The translations under genes were made by a program, and so were the position numbers. A DNA stretch of 24,843 nt from a virus. Positions 3,890 to 14,694 of this stretch are shown in pieces. Below the pieces are notes generated by a model, which saw only the letters and a program-made list of their open reading frames with translations, had not been told where the DNA came from and made no database searches. The DNA lies in the IMG/VR virus record IMGVR_UViG_3300011432_000043, positions 1 to 24,843 of that record; one strand, given 5' to 3'. Each line of letters opens with the position of its first letter. Positions within the stretch are counted from its first letter, which is position 1.

Positions 3890-5122
3890 ATGACTACCAT
3901 GTCAAACACAGTATGCTTCTATAACAACGGCGAGTTTGATCGTCGCTCTCTCACTATGATGGGCTTGTCTGCTAAGAAGGACGATACAGCTATCGGCTTC
4001 TTTGGCACAGGCTTCAAGTACGCTATCGCTACACTACTGCGCCTTGGTGCTACGATTGAAATCACTGCGCGTAGTGGTGAAGGCTATACAACGTATAACT
4101 TCTATTCAATCGGTGACAAGTTCCGTGGTAAGGAGTTTGAATGCATCTACTGTGAGAGTGAGCAAGATCGCATCGAGCTTCCATTCACCACACATCTAGG
4201 TGCTAACTGGAAAGCATGGCAAGCCTATCGTGAGCTATTCACCAACGCTAAAGATGAAGGCGGTGGCGTAGCTCTCATTGATGACCTCAAGGTTGCTGCT
4301 GCTGACATCGTTGTATCAGTGACAGACAACAACATCGCTAAGGTGTTTGAGGAACATGATAAGTACTTCCTCAATGAAGAAGCTGTTAGCACTGGCTATC
4401 GCATGCGCTGCGTACAGAAACGCCAAACACATGATAACGTGGTGTACTACAAATCCATGTACACAGGCACACGTTTAGACAAGCCAACGTTCTTCACGTA
4501 CGACTATGTGAAGACTGTAGACTTGACTGAGGATCGCACACTCGCTGACACATGGTACATTCGTACACACATTGGCGAGCTATGGGCATGCAACATGGAC
4601 TACGATACTCTCGTAGAATATCTGCCTAAGATCGCTAATCAAGACTACTTCGAGAACAGTCTTGACACAGGCTATCATGCAGGCAGCGAAGACTTCCTCA
4701 ATGCGTGCGCTTATCTCAACAAGATGCATCGCCCTATGCCTATGTGGGCGCGTGATATGTACATCAAGACACTACCATTCGATCAACAGATCGAGGCATA
4801 CAAACCTACACGTCATCAGAAGGCACAGCTTGCTAAGGCTATCGAGATCCTCGCACACCATAAGTACATGATCGACTTGGAGAAGCTGCACCTATGCACC
4901 TCTCTACCTAGTGACGTACTCGGCTACTATCGTGATGGTAACATCTACATCGCTAAGGAAGCGTTCGACCGTGGCTTTGAGAAGCTGCTAGGCACGTTGT
5001 ATGAGGAATGGCTGCACATGCATGAACAGTGTGATGACATGTCACGCAGCATGCAGAACATACTCGTAGATCGTGTAGCTTCACTAATGGAGCAGGTCTA
5101 CGATATGGAACAGGTAGTGTAG
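3890..5122 (+). CDS. GHKL-type ATPase-like protein with zincin-like C-terminus
   Basis: A 410-aa protein, start ATG 3890 with AAGGAG 8 bases upstream. It carries two ATP-site signatures of the GHKL (gyrase, Hsp90, histidine kinase, MutL) fold: the glycine box GFFGTGFKYA (36-45), very like the Hsp90 GQFGVGF box, and the N-box RELFTNAKDEGG (114-125; E115, N119, D122). The glycine box precedes the N-box, the reverse of the usual order. The C-terminus has VLGYY-x(4)-IYIA followed by LYEEWLHMHEQCDDMSRSMQ (380-399), resembling a zincin helix in which the first His of HExxH is Glu (EExxH). The domain assignment is inference from motifs. Palindrome 4085-4097 lies within it. Possible roles include remodelling or inhibiting a host ATPase; unknown. 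Confidence 0.8.
   Translation: MTTMSNTVCFYNNGEFDRRSLTMMGLSAKKDDTAIGFFGTGFKYAIATLLRLGATIEITARSGEGYTTYNFYSIGDKFRGKEFECIYCESEQDRIELPFTTHLGANWKAWQAYRELFTNAKDEGGGVALIDDLKVAAADIVVSVTDNNIAKVFEEHDKYFLNEEAVSTGYRMRCVQKRQTHDNVVYYKSMYTGTRLDKPTFFTYDYVKTVDLTEDRTLADTWYIRTHIGELWACNMDYDTLVEYLPKIANQDYFENSLDTGYHAGSEDFLNACAYLNKMHRPMPMWARDMYIKTLPFDQQIEAYKPTRHQKAQLAKAIEILAHHKYMIDLEKLHLCTSLPSDVLGYYRDGNIYIAKEAFDRGFEKLLGTLYEEWLHMHEQCDDMSRSMQNILVDRVASLMEQVYDMEQVV
4085..4097. repeat. Palindrome TATAC-AAC-GTATA, site 7 (in gene)
   Basis: Exact dyad inside the GHKL-like gene, read as codons TAT ACA ACG TAT (Tyr-Thr-Thr-Tyr), a different frame from sites 4 and 5. Confidence 0.85.
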
Positions 5123-5600: not shown

Positions 5601-5758
5601 TGCCACATGAATACGCACTGCACATGATGTGGCTATACGCTAAGTACTACTTCTCAGCTATCCTCATCTACGGACTACTCTACATGCTACCAATCACACT
5701 CACTCTATATGGAGTTAAACAGTGGCTGAGAAGAAGACAATCCCGCAGCATGTCATAG
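5600..5758 (+). CDS. Small membrane protein (52 aa)
   Basis: ATG 5600 shares its A with the TGA of the preceding gene and runs to TAG 5756-5758, encoding 52 residues. A hydrophobic stretch FSAILIYGLLYMLPITLTLY (residues about 18-37) fits one membrane helix. It is followed by KQWLRRRQSR, a strongly positive tail that by the positive-inside rule predicts a cytoplasmic C-terminus. The length and topology fit small phage membrane proteins such as holin-like, spanin-like or superinfection-exclusion peptides, but no lysin gene is adjacent, so I assign no role. It overlaps the start of the HNH gene by 37 bases. Confidence 0.62.
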   Translation: MPHEYALHMMWLYAKYYFSAILIYGLLYMLPITLTLYGVKQWLRRRQSRSMS

Positions 5759-6420
5759 ATCAACGTGCTGGTGCTATTAACGAGAAGTTCCGCCCACGCA
5801 AACAGAAGTCAGAGTTCTACGATGTGTTCCGTCGCATCAACATGCATGATGGTGACAAAGAACTATGCTGGGAGTGGAAGGGCGCACATGGTAAAGGCAC
5901 ACGCGGTGAATACAGACCGCGTGTGGTGATAGGACAGAAGGACTACTACGTACATCGCATCGTGTATCAGCTCTATACAGGCTACACGCTGCAAACTGGT
6001 GATGTGATCAGGCACAACTGCGACAACTCATGGTGCTGCAATCCACATCACATGATCGTAGGCACACAAGCTGACAACGTTCAAGACATGCTCGCTCGCG
6101 AACGTGTAGGTATGCGCCTATTCTACGTCAAGCGTATCATGCAGATGCTTGAGACTGGCTGCGATGCGTCATTCGTAACTGCTAAGATGAAAGAAGGCTA
6201 CAACATACAGTTGGACGTATCAACTATACGTAAGATCCGCATGCGTACATTGTATAAGCACGTTGAGTGGCCTTGGGGTGATGAGTACAAGGCCACACGT
6301 AGGAAGCGACTAGATGAGGTAAAGGCTGCTAAACTTGCATGTGTTTCTGAATGTGATATAATACTAGATGCTACCAACAGACAAGGAGACGATGATGGCA
6401 ACGACAAAGATAAAGCCTAA
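5722..6420 (+). CDS. HNH endonuclease (homing-type)
   Basis: A 232-aa protein starting at GTG 5722 with GGAGTT at 5711-5716. It shows an HNH homing endonuclease signature: CWEWKGAHGKGTRGEYRP (49-66), HRIVYQLYTG (78-87), and RHNCDNSWCCNPHHMIVGT (97-115), followed by ADNVQDMLARERVG, typical of phage free-standing HNH enzymes. The pattern of Cys and His suggests a metal-binding core. The C-terminal part (about 130-180) could be a helical DNA-recognition segment ending in STIRKIRM. It would nick or cut double-stranded DNA. The last 30 residues are encoded by the DNA that forms promoter P2, and the end of the gene overlaps the next gene, so the tail may be dictated by regulation. It starts inside the 52-aa membrane gene. 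Confidence 0.85.
   Translation: MAEKKTIPQHVIDQRAGAINEKFRPRKQKSEFYDVFRRINMHDGDKELCWEWKGAHGKGTRGEYRPRVVIGQKDYYVHRIVYQLYTGYTLQTGDVIRHNCDNSWCCNPHHMIVGTQADNVQDMLARERVGMRLFYVKRIMQMLETGCDASFVTAKMKEGYNIQLDVSTIRKIRMRTLYKHVEWPWGDEYKATRRKRLDEVKAAKLACVSECDIILDATNRQGDDDGNDKDKA
6335..6362 (+). promoter_or_regulatory. Promoter P2 inside the HNH gene
   Basis: The -35 is TTGCAT (6335-6340), the spacer is 16 bp, and the -10 is TATAAT (6357-6362). It shares CTTGCATGTG with P1 at the same spacing, with TGTGA upstream of the -10 instead of TGC. The predicted start is near 6369, which supports translation of the next gene from 6395 rather than from the in-frame ATG at 6368. Confidence 0.75.
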
Positions 6421-10825: not shown

Positions 10826-12166
10826 ATGGAATTAGATGCGGAACAGCAAGCCGCAGTAGCTGCTTGCATAGATACAGCTAAGCGTCTTGTCAGCGTAACA
10901 GGTGAGGCTGGCACAGGTAAGACTACAATCATCAAGCAAGCTTGCGAACAACTCGATGCAGTTGGTGTATCATTCGCAATCGCTGCACCTACTGGTAAGG
11001 CAGCGCGGCGTATTAGAGAAGCGACCGGCTACCCAGCTACAACTATCCACAAGCTGCTAGAGTTTAACCGCCCTGACATAGACGAAGAAACAGGTGAACC
11101 TACATCTGTTAGTGGTCCCACTCGCAAACGCACCAACCCACTTGAGCAATACGTTATCATCGTCGATGAGTATGCGATGGTATCAACAGCACTACATCGT
11201 GACCTAGTAGCAGCTATCCCTAGTGGTGGCTGCTTGCGTACGTTCGGTGATGTTCGACAACTACCACCGATCGAGAACACACAACTAGCTGATCCAACGT
11301 CGCCGTTCAGCAAGTGTCTCGCTATGCCTAACACCTTCACACTCAACAACATCTATCGACAAGCCGAAGGCAACGGCATCATCGAAGCTGCTCGACGTAT
11401 CGCACGTGGTCAGTTCTTTACTAGCAATCAAGACGTTGGCGTACATCTAGGCGACGCAGTGCTGCATACATTGTATGGCTCACTTACTAACAGCGAGGTA
11501 GATTGGAGTAGCATCAACAACCAGATCATATCGCCAGCACGTAAGAGTGACATCGGCACTATCAGGTTGAACACCATACTACAAGCACGCTTCAACCCTA
11601 CCATGCCGGGTAAGATCGAACTACCACGCAACAAGTGGGAGGTGAAGAACAAGGTCTACGTCAGCATAGGCGACAAGGTTGTATGCAACACGAACAGCTA
11701 CGACCTACGTGACTACGGTGAACGCTTCACAGAGTATAACAACAATGGTGTCGGCTTGATGGGCAGCTTCATCCCATGTCCTGAGACTAAGCAGATGCTC
11801 AACGGTGAGGTAGGTAAGGTAGTAGACATCGACCCACTAGGTGTACTTGAGATTGACTTCGGTGATCGCATTGTCGAACTACCACCAGCCGTTGAGGAAT
11901 ACAGTGCTAAGCATATGCGACACTACACCTACGACCCACGTAAGGTGATCGAGCTAGCCTACGCACTGACAACTCACAAGTGTCAAGGTAGTCAGTACGA
12001 CAACGTGACATACATCATGGCATCATGTGCGTTCTTCAACCTAAGCCGACCTAACTTCTATACAGGAGTAACACGCGCAGCAAAGCACGCAACGATAGTA
12101 ACCGACCAACGCAGCCTAGCTACATCGCTCAAGTCAATGGGTTGGAAAAGGAAGTTCAACAAATGA
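10826..12166 (+). CDS. RecD-type SF1 DNA helicase
   Basis: A 446-aa ATPase, ATG 10826 with AAGGAA at 10813-10818. Helicase motifs in order: GEAGTGKT (26-33, Walker A), APTGKAA (54-60, motif Ia), DEYAM (114-118, motif II), GDVRQLPP (141-148, motif III), THKCQGSQYDNV (383-394, motif V) and YTGVTRAAKH (412-421, motif VI). This matches RecD/Dda-like SF1B helicases, which move 5'-3' on single-stranded DNA and serve phage replication and recombination. It lacks the N-terminal extension of RecD2 proteins. Its last codons overlap the polymerase start as ATGA (12163-12166), so the two are probably coupled. Confidence 0.9.
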   Translation: MELDAEQQAAVAACIDTAKRLVSVTGEAGTGKTTIIKQACEQLDAVGVSFAIAAPTGKAARRIREATGYPATTIHKLLEFNRPDIDEETGEPTSVSGPTRKRTNPLEQYVIIVDEYAMVSTALHRDLVAAIPSGGCLRTFGDVRQLPPIENTQLADPTSPFSKCLAMPNTFTLNNIYRQAEGNGIIEAARRIARGQFFTSNQDVGVHLGDAVLHTLYGSLTNSEVDWSSINNQIISPARKSDIGTIRLNTILQARFNPTMPGKIELPRNKWEVKNKVYVSIGDKVVCNTNSYDLRDYGERFTEYNNNGVGLMGSFIPCPETKQMLNGEVGKVVDIDPLGVLEIDFGDRIVELPPAVEEYSAKHMRHYTYDPRKVIELAYALTTHKCQGSQYDNVTYIMASCAFFNLSRPNFYTGVTRAAKHATIVTDQRSLATSLKSMGWKRKFNK

Positions 12167-14694
12167 ACATGACAGAACTGCGCGACAAGTTCACACTACA
12201 AGCACAGACGGCGGGTATGGTTGTGGAGTGTGCGATGGGAGGTGTCACCCTTGCCACACTCGCAGTGATAGCCGAAGCTCCCGGACGTAACGAGATCGCT
12301 CAAGGTGTGCCACTGGTAGGTGGGGCGGGCAACATACTGTGGAAGGCCATACGCACATACTGTCCAGAGGTGAAACGCCATGAATGTTACGTCACTAACG
12401 TAGTCAAGCGCCAAGTCGCGTTTGATGTAACTGACAGCACTAATCGTAAACCAGTTGGTAAGCATGAGCTGACTTCATGGCAAGAGCTATTGCTGTGGGA
12501 GCTATCACTACTACCCAATCTCAAGCACGTACTACTGCTAGGCAACTACGCAGTCGAAGCGGTGCTAGGTAAGAAAGGGATAACTAACTGGCGCGGCAGT
12601 GTAATGGATTGTCAGATACTTGGCAAGCCTGTCACAGCTATATGCACATACAACCCTGCCTACTGCGCACGTGATCCTATGTCACACGTCATCTTCGACA
12701 TGGACATCGCTGATAAGCTACGCCCTGTGATACTTGGCAAGTACAAACCACATGCAGTCACTACCCACATCAACCCCACCTACACACAAGCAGTTGACTA
12801 TATTCGTATGTGTAAAGCCTCACGTGATCCGGTCGCTTCGGACATTGAGGTCATCAGTAATGAGACAGCTTGCGTCGGCCTTGCTCCTACAGCACACGAG
12901 GCCATGTGCATCGCATTCCGTAACGAACAAGATAACATCTATACACCGTATGAAGAACGAAGCCTACGCTCTAATCTGCAACAGCTATACACATCGCCTA
13001 CTGCAAAGCTGGTGTGGCAGAATGGAGGCTTCGACATGGCGTGGCTCTGGTTTAAGGATCGCATTCGCTGCAAGCCAGCATACTCCGACACGCTGCTTGG
13101 TCATCATGTGTTATATCCCCCAATGCCGCACGACCTTGGCTTCATCGTCAAGCAGTACACAATGCATCCGTACTATAAGAATGAGAAGGACGATTGGCGT
13201 CACACAGGGGGTGTTGATAATTTCTGGATATACAACTGTAAAGACTGCGCTCTCACACTTGCAGCGAATGCGCACATCGTTGCGGAGTTGAAGGAGCAGA
13301 AGCTAGACAAGTTCTACTTCGAGCATGTCATGCGCTTGCAAGCACACCTAGTACTAATGACTGTCGGTGGTGTGCTCAACGACATGCCGATGCGTGAGCA
13401 GATGCTAGATCCTAACATCGGTGGCAACCTATACGCTGACCTACAACGCAAGCTGCAAGAGTTCTACGACGCAGCACGTAAGGCTGTTGGTGATGAGTAC
13501 TACACACCTAACCCTAACAGCCCGAAGCAGATGGCAGAGCTATACTTCAGTAAGCTGAAGCTTGTCGGCAGGGGAACGAGTACTGACGCTACCAATCGCG
13601 AATTGATGCGTAAGCACCCAAGAACCCCTGCCGCTGCACGTGCAGTGCTTGATGCTGTAGATGCGTACATCGAAGACGACAAGTTCTACAGCGTGTATGC
13701 ATCAGCTAGGCCAGACAACGACTCACGGATGCGATGCGACTACAGACAAACGGGGGTACGCAACGCGCCGGGTAGATTGAGTAGTGCTCAAACGCTGTGG
13801 GGTAGTGGAGCTAACCTTCAGAACATTCCCGACCGCGCGAAAGCGATGTTCATTGCTGATCCTGACTGCTGCTTTATATACATCGACGGCAGTCAAGCGG
13901 AGGCTCGCGTCGTCGGCTGGCGCTACAACATCGACACGTGGATTGCTCAGTTTGAGCGGGCGCGTATTGATGGCTCCTACGATTGTCACCGCGCTCTTGC
14001 CGCTGACATGTTCGACATACCGTACGACAAGGTTCCCACCTTCGACCGCTACCCATTGGACGACATCGCCGCTAAGCGCGACGGCATCGAGTACAACGCG
14101 GAGCTTGCTGGCAAGCCAACCATTCGCTTCGTTGCTAAGAGGTGTCGTCATGGTCTTAACTACCGTATGATGCCTGACAGGCTCGCGCTTACAACTGGCT
14201 TATCACTAAGCACAGCAAGCGAGGCGTTTGTCAAGTACCATAAGCTAACTCCCGAACTGAAGAAAGGTTGGGAGCAAGACCTAAAAAGGGTTCGTGAGGA
14301 ACGAGCGATCTACAATGCATACGGTAGGCGGTACATGCAGTTGATACCAGCTACCGATGAAAGCACCGAAGCTATCGTAGCATTCTATCCACAGTCAACT
14401 ATCGGGGATCACATATGCAGGGTAATATACAAAGCGCACGACGACCCCGCTTGGCCGAAGGGTAAAGCACGCATCGCACTTAACACACACGATGGACTCA
14501 TCGGTATCGCTCGACGTGATGTAGCTAAAGCCGCTCTTAGGATACTCGTTAAGCACGCAGAAGCACCCATCCTGATAGGAGGTAAGCAACTCATAATCCC
14601 TGCCGAATGCGGTATATCTGTGCCAGATGCCGATGGTGTTCATCGGTGGTCTACTATCAAGAAGATCAAGAAGGCTGACGTATACAGTGTATAG
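12163..14694 (+). CDS. Family A DNA polymerase fused to a UDG-like domain
   Basis: An 843-aa protein. I chose ATG 12163 (ATGA overlap, AAGGAAG upstream); a TTG at 12142 is less likely. Residues 30-190 match the family 4 UDG-like fold (EAPGRNE then GVPLVGGAGN, 38-56), but the expected HPA motif reads NPA (164-166) and the four-Cys iron-sulphur pattern is not clear. Residues 225-370 match a DnaQ-type 3'-5' exonuclease: D227/E229, D291, Y357/D361. The polymerase has motif A with D575 and E580 (IDGSQAEAR), motif B R655-x3-K659-x3-H663-x3-Y667, and motif C THDG (D777). The E. coli F762 position is His and the HDE motif is HDG. It is probably the phage replicative polymerase; glycosylase activity is doubtful. 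Confidence 0.9.
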   Translation: MNMTELRDKFTLQAQTAGMVVECAMGGVTLATLAVIAEAPGRNEIAQGVPLVGGAGNILWKAIRTYCPEVKRHECYVTNVVKRQVAFDVTDSTNRKPVGKHELTSWQELLLWELSLLPNLKHVLLLGNYAVEAVLGKKGITNWRGSVMDCQILGKPVTAICTYNPAYCARDPMSHVIFDMDIADKLRPVILGKYKPHAVTTHINPTYTQAVDYIRMCKASRDPVASDIEVISNETACVGLAPTAHEAMCIAFRNEQDNIYTPYEERSLRSNLQQLYTSPTAKLVWQNGGFDMAWLWFKDRIRCKPAYSDTLLGHHVLYPPMPHDLGFIVKQYTMHPYYKNEKDDWRHTGGVDNFWIYNCKDCALTLAANAHIVAELKEQKLDKFYFEHVMRLQAHLVLMTVGGVLNDMPMREQMLDPNIGGNLYADLQRKLQEFYDAARKAVGDEYYTPNPNSPKQMAELYFSKLKLVGRGTSTDATNRELMRKHPRTPAAARAVLDAVDAYIEDDKFYSVYASARPDNDSRMRCDYRQTGVRNAPGRLSSAQTLWGSGANLQNIPDRAKAMFIADPDCCFIYIDGSQAEARVVGWRYNIDTWIAQFERARIDGSYDCHRALAADMFDIPYDKVPTFDRYPLDDIAAKRDGIEYNAELAGKPTIRFVAKRCRHGLNYRMMPDRLALTTGLSLSTASEAFVKYHKLTPELKKGWEQDLKRVREERAIYNAYGRRYMQLIPATDESTEAIVAFYPQSTIGDHICRVIYKAHDDPAWPKGKARIALNTHDGLIGIARRDVAKAALRILVKHAEAPILIGGKQLIIPAECGISVPDADGVHRWSTIKKIKKADVYSV
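14681..14693. repeat. Palindrome TATAC-AGT-GTATA, site 15 (at convergence)
   Basis: Exact dyad arms covering the last codons of the polymerase gene (Val-Tyr-Ser-Val, third frame type) and part of its stop. It lies at the point where plus- and minus-strand genes converge. Confidence 0.8.

Follow-up and report, generated by a model that had tools for sequence, protein, structure and literature searches.

GHKL proteins (Hsp90, gyrase B, MutL and histidine kinases) form one of the largest groups of ATPases and, to our knowledge, all share one motif order. ATP-driven conformational switching is their general working mode and, in classical members, the aspartate of motif G1 contacts adenine. TRAP1, topoisomerase VI-B and sacsin-type domains display the canonical order, with the N-box followed by G1 and G2, and as far as known this presumably also holds for T4 rIIA. 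Selecase and abylysin, to which the tail domain described below is compared, are small metallopeptidases with an HExxH motif. Outside the topoisomerases, T4 rIIA is a phage-encoded GHKL ATPase (PMC7824862). In the Mesyanzhinovviridae paper PMC11946847, ATPase is mentioned for the terminase only. A search of the open-access literature returned no report of a circularly permuted GHKL, Bergerat or histidine kinase-like ATPase.

The gene studied here most likely encodes a circularly permuted variant of the GHKL fold. It lies in a 24.8 kb virus record (hereafter the window, i.e. the whole stretch of DNA that was analysed), in which phage replication genes occupy one strand and large genes, likely coding for virion proteins, the other. 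Its features are as follows (positions in the window, residues of the protein in brackets):

3890..5122, + strand, whole gene, circularly permuted GHKL ATPase-like protein of family phrog_8203 (410 aa)
3908..3940, + strand, strand C and G1-like motif NNGEFD (residues 7-17)
3992..4042, + strand, G2 box IGFFGTGFKYAIATLLR and its helix (residues 35-51)
4052..4156, + strand, strands D, E and F (residues 55-89), located after G2 as in canonical relatives
4169..4276, + strand, relocated unit of strand A, N-box helix and strand B (residues 94-129), which opens the fold in canonical relatives
4229..4264, + strand, N-box RELFTNAKDEGG (residues 114-125) with invariant R114, E115, N119, D122 and E123
4307..4639, + strand, strand G and the region after it (residues 140-250), which is co-linear with canonical relatives and contains LTEDR (212-216)
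4802..5119, + strand, minigluzincin-like C-terminal domain (residues 305-410), absent from canonical-order relatives
5003..5017, + strand, EExxH motif EEWLH (residues 372-376), followed by the invariant D383 and Q389

Gene 3890-5122 and its family

The open reading frame is real, its ATG being preceded at good spacing by the ribosome-binding site AAGGAG. In a PHROGs search, its product matched phrog_8203 over the full length (E 1.1e-62, residues 6-403 of 410) and, as second match, phrog_6077 partially. Family phrog_8203 is recorded as being of unknown function; a few of its records are annotated as HATPase, ATP-binding protein or metallopeptidase. Searches by tblastn yielded 71 annotated phage records, mostly Mesyanzhinovviridae-like and chiefly from Pseudomonas, Bordetella and Stenotrophomonas phages of this family, as well as 359 matching stretches of viral contigs, 80 of which were kept. 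Phage-like genes were also found near the matches in bacterial genomes, at the two loci checked (L107 and L108). A match in Escherichia phage ERS-1, unverified and with a broken reading frame, was set aside, and one to an integrase of a Sulfolobus virus was judged to be due to chance. YuA gp29 is about 33% identical to the window protein, which belongs to a separate clade with members 50-58% identical.

Pfam gave zero matches for the window protein, for the 69 aligned members of the family and for the tail alone. Its HATPase models in particular missed every phrog_8203 member scanned, which is a consequence of the permutation. Searches of PDB sequences with full-length and tail profiles found nothing, and a plasmid collection gave no match. 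Since PADLOC displayed just marginal matches, to TmtA and DrmB, no defence-system claim is made.

The GHKL gene is a non-structural gene of the replication region and sits in the replication module both in the window and in YuA. No partner gene within 3 kb was conserved family-wide. In the window, an HNH endonuclease gene (5722-6420, + strand) is located about 600 bp downstream; its ORF cluster recurred in 23 of the 103 loci compared, downstream in 22 of them. A gene for a DUF932 (PF06067) protein (900-1817, + strand) belongs to the same early gene cluster. Further along, the DNA polymerase A gene (12142-14694, + strand) codes for an N-terminal uracil-DNA-glycosylase-like domain (PF03167, residues 38-179) that precedes the exonuclease and polymerase domains.

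Motif order and conservation

The earlier note had read GFFGTGFKYA (residues 36-45) and the N-box (114-125), exactly at these positions, as standing in reversed order and as a hint of circular permutation. The reversal is real and common to the whole family, which displays the order G1, G2, N-box. Permutation itself is strongly supported by sequence profiles, by the curated model NF047352 and by the succession of elements in two structural models of high confidence.

Conservation was assessed on 69 aligned members displaying 21-57% identity to the window protein. Twenty-three positions were invariant, distributed among the G2 box, the N-box, a downstream E-x-R motif and the tail motif. Outside the tail, these included G25, K29, G36, F38, G39, G41, K43, R51, W107 and W110 as well as R114, E115, N119, D122, E123, E214 and R216. 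At the sequence level, such invariance across homologues means that the motifs of the window protein are not a product of chance. The Glu and Asn of the N-box are carried by a helix, as in GHKL proteins, but this helix is no longer the first in the chain. The G2 loop GxxGxG is present, with G36, G39, G41 and K43 invariant, and is supported by the NF047352 match. The G1 motif departs from DxGxG since it reads NxGxxD in the window protein, the classical Asp being missing.

The swapped order became apparent by comparison with GAP31_101 and the protein of Luteibacter phage Pluto, which both display the usual succession of N-box (VRELIQNAID), G1 and G2. BLASTP of GAP31_101 against YuA gp29 aligned residues 54-99 with 12-56 (E 4e-7) and, as second match, residues 16-44 with 93-119, hence in swapped order. 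When a canonical-order profile built from 73 proteins was compared to the permuted one, residues 7-320 of the latter aligned with canonical 43-330 (E 1.7e-15, probability 98.5), leaving out permuted residues ~92-130; permuted residues 95-124 aligned separately with canonical 4-33 (E 1.4e-6, probability 90). Likewise, window segment 91-131 scored 54.0 against the canonical-order family, again at canonical residues 4-33; among 100 column shuffles, the highest score was 22.8. Scores against the canonical N-terminal piece were 43-50 for segments of the protein covering residues 109-120 and at most 15.2 for all others. The canonical HMM produced swapped-order matches in the window protein, in YuA and in the bacterial-genome copies (L107, L108 and L109), and reciprocal matches were obtained too. 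NF047352, the NCBIfam sacsin-type ATP-binding model, matched 54 of the 69 members. In the window protein, residues 6-43 were matched to profile positions 26-68 only; in a canonical relative, the match was contiguous over positions 4-68. The possibility that a wrongly called start conceals an N-box further upstream was rejected: residues 1-90 align from canonical position 43 on, and the upstream ORF is devoid of N-box motif.

AlphaFold2 models of the window protein (pLDDT 92.9) and of the canonical protein from PaMx11 (pLDDT 94.4) indicated the same rearrangement. The PaMx11 model runs through A (8-15), N-box helix (24-38), B (44-48), C (51-57), lid helix, G2 helix (86-96), D, E, F (122-131), G (137-143) and a helix (147-155). 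The window model displays C (7-12), lid helix (19-22), G2 helix (40-51), D (55-62), E (65-78), F (81-89), A (94-100), N-box helix (109-122), B (126-129), G (140-145) and a helix (147-154). Elements correspond one-to-one once the single unit A-N-box helix-B, first in the canonical protein and located between strands F and G in the window protein, is moved. As modelled, the change is thus a circular permutation of the A-to-F block, the protein being unchanged from strand G on.

Foldseek related the canonical model to TRAP1 (E 3.3e-6) and topoisomerase VI-B (E 6.2e-5), and the permuted model, in BFVD, to a canonical-order Erwinia phage protein (E 1.2e-10, probability 1.00). Against the PDB, the permuted model gave nothing significant (best E 0.2; topoisomerase VI-B at a probability of just 0.14-0.16), as expected since the Foldseek search is sequential and the chain is permuted. 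Structure prediction, which the earlier note had proposed as a check, therefore matched the elements to those of a GHKL relative but returned no significant direct PDB match, and the Bergerat fold of the permuted protein is inferred through its relatives.

When a tree was built from the co-linear part, the permuted proteins and the canonical ones separated on either side of a single branch (support 100/100). Since TRAP1, topoisomerase VI-B and sacsin-type domains are canonical, the permuted order is probably derived and probably arose once. Within Mesyanzhinovviridae, the permuted form occurred in Yuavirus and Vojvodinavirus (Rabinowitzvirinae) and the canonical one in Abidjanvirus (Bradleyvirinae), both between primase and exonuclease/terminase genes; YuA and Ab19 carry one form each in their first 50 kb. 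The canonical-order phage family (L012:2851-3999, L111, L112 and A4 members) displays SxG at G1, and is also devoid of the classical Asp. Both families, as their sequences suggest, may for this reason bind nucleotide otherwise than Hsp90. The canonical-order genes of Abidjanvirus (L112:6971-8053 and L111:6962-8053) directly follow a 72-aa gene that in Ab19 carries the annotation 'hydrolase, metallopeptidase'. A similar metallopeptidase annotation was found directly upstream of the permuted gene in AN14.

The C-terminal tail domain

The earlier note had also described a degenerate zincin-like tail, with EEWLH at residues 372-376, where the motif indeed lies. In the AlphaFold2 model, residues 305-410 form a helix, strands, a helix carrying EExxH and a last helix. 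Minigluzincins such as selecase and proabylysin have a layout of about 105 residues (helix, strands, active helix, second helix, with the motif within the active helix) that the modelled tail appears to resemble. The Foldseek match is weak (selecase 4qhi, probability 0.82, TM 0.50 by target length, E 0.26; abylysin 4jiu, probability 0.35), and sequence similarity is not detectable. The tail domain had no sequence match in Pfam, peptidase families or PDB chains. Minigluzincins display HExxH, in contrast to EExxH in all tails of the family: among the 103 tail domains found, EExxH occurred in every one and HExxH in none. Zincin membership fails on this absence, and the zincin-like label is best taken as a lead weakly suggested by modelled shape.

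'Degenerate' is misleading, since EExxH, D and Q are invariant (E372, E373, H376, D383 and Q389 in all 69 members). Constraint on the tail motif is therefore equal to that on the ATPase motifs. No stand-alone copies of the domain were recorded among the fetched loci. In five members whose end differs (L009, L010, L104, L105 and L106), the tail profile found no match; the permuted GHKL genes of L009 and L010 (LR756500.1, a 462 kb phage) lack the EExxH motif of the tail or the whole domain.

Proposed mechanism and relation to known systems

That the protein is homologous to canonical GHKL phage proteins, that its order is swapped, that a single branch separates the two orders and that the motifs are invariant is shown here. 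To these we add a working model that we consider quite probable as a whole: a GHKL module in which the unit of strand A, N-box helix and strand B moved once, with preservation of the pocket and with an ATP switch repositioning the tail onto a target. Originally at the head of the fold, the unit would have come to lie between strands F and G. From strand G onwards nothing was displaced, and the three-dimensional pocket was for this reason probably preserved. ATP would be held by the N-box (E115, N119 and D122) and the G2 loop, upon which the lid would close. Closure would change the conformation or dimer state and reposition the minigluzincin-like domain, which would then bind or cut a protein target at the early replication stage of infection. 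An ATP-gated conformational switch placing the tail on its target early in infection is thus the most likely function, a proposal based on general GHKL behaviour and on gene location. Action on host chaperone or topoisomerase functions, as suggested in the earlier note, was left without support.

Several other readings were weighed against this model. That the motif similarity is fortuitous and the protein unrelated to GHKL ATPases could draw on the lack of Pfam HATPase matches and of a significant PDB fold match, which, together with the absent G1 Asp (also lacking in canonical-order phage relatives), are the arguments against a permuted GHKL fold. Yet the two profile alignments, the shuffle controls, NF047352, the BFVD match and the one-to-one correspondence of structural elements with a canonical relative leave it a negligible probability, and it is already refuted to a high degree. 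The permuted fold might instead have been kept as a scaffold, with loss of ATP hydrolysis and perhaps of binding. The missing G1 Asp (NxG) and the loss of the C-terminal domain in some members (L009 and L010) would suit such a pseudo-ATPase, which we nevertheless regard as quite unlikely: invariance of E115, N119, D122, G36, G39, G41 and K43 at such low overall identities is hard to explain without nucleotide chemistry.

Other alternatives concern what the protein does. The tail might be an active, unusual metallohydrolase gated by the ATPase, with a putative metal on E372, H376 and D383 and E373 as base. The invariant EExxH, D383 and Q389 and the resemblance of the fold to selecase and abylysin argue for it; the Glu found throughout in place of the first HExxH zinc ligand, the weak fold match and the failure to match any peptidase family or PDB chain by sequence make it rather doubtful. 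The more specific combination of a naturally permuted GHKL ATPase, retained throughout a large phage clade, with an active metalloprotease that it gates and whose metal site is a non-canonical EExxH...D appears unlikely; if true, the protein would represent a previously undescribed type of ATP-switched protease. A role as counter-defence or host-takeover factor, comparable to T4 rIIA, is in keeping with the position of this non-structural gene in the replication region, and GHKL phage proteins like rIIA have been discussed as counter-defence factors (PMC7824862). Against this role, which we hold to be somewhat improbable, no defence-related neighbour was conserved across the family and the PHROGs search gave no family match to rIIA. 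The C-terminal domain of rIIA is different.

The preferred reading, a permuted GHKL switch, provides a testable function for a 'hypothetical protein' that occurs in over 50 records of Pseudomonas phages. The window protein resembles YuA gp29 and its relatives from Mesyanzhinovviridae (phrog_8203) in combining the swapped order with the EExxH tail. The swap is retained throughout this large family of phages, and a protease-like tail is fused to it. With sacsin-type domains, TRAP1 (Hsp90) and topoisomerase VI-B, it shares the N-box Glu and Asn and the G2 glycine loop, but differs from them by its element order, missing G1 Asp and C-terminal domain. Family phrog_6077 (GAP31_101, PaMx11 gp71 and Ab19 gp34) displays homologous G1, G2, N-box and downstream beta region together with a conserved (D/E)DR-type motif, in contrast to the window protein in canonical order and without the EExxH tail domain. 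The swap can thus be compared directly with canonical-order relatives from sister phage subfamilies, which offers a natural before-and-after pair for testing how a fold survives permutation.
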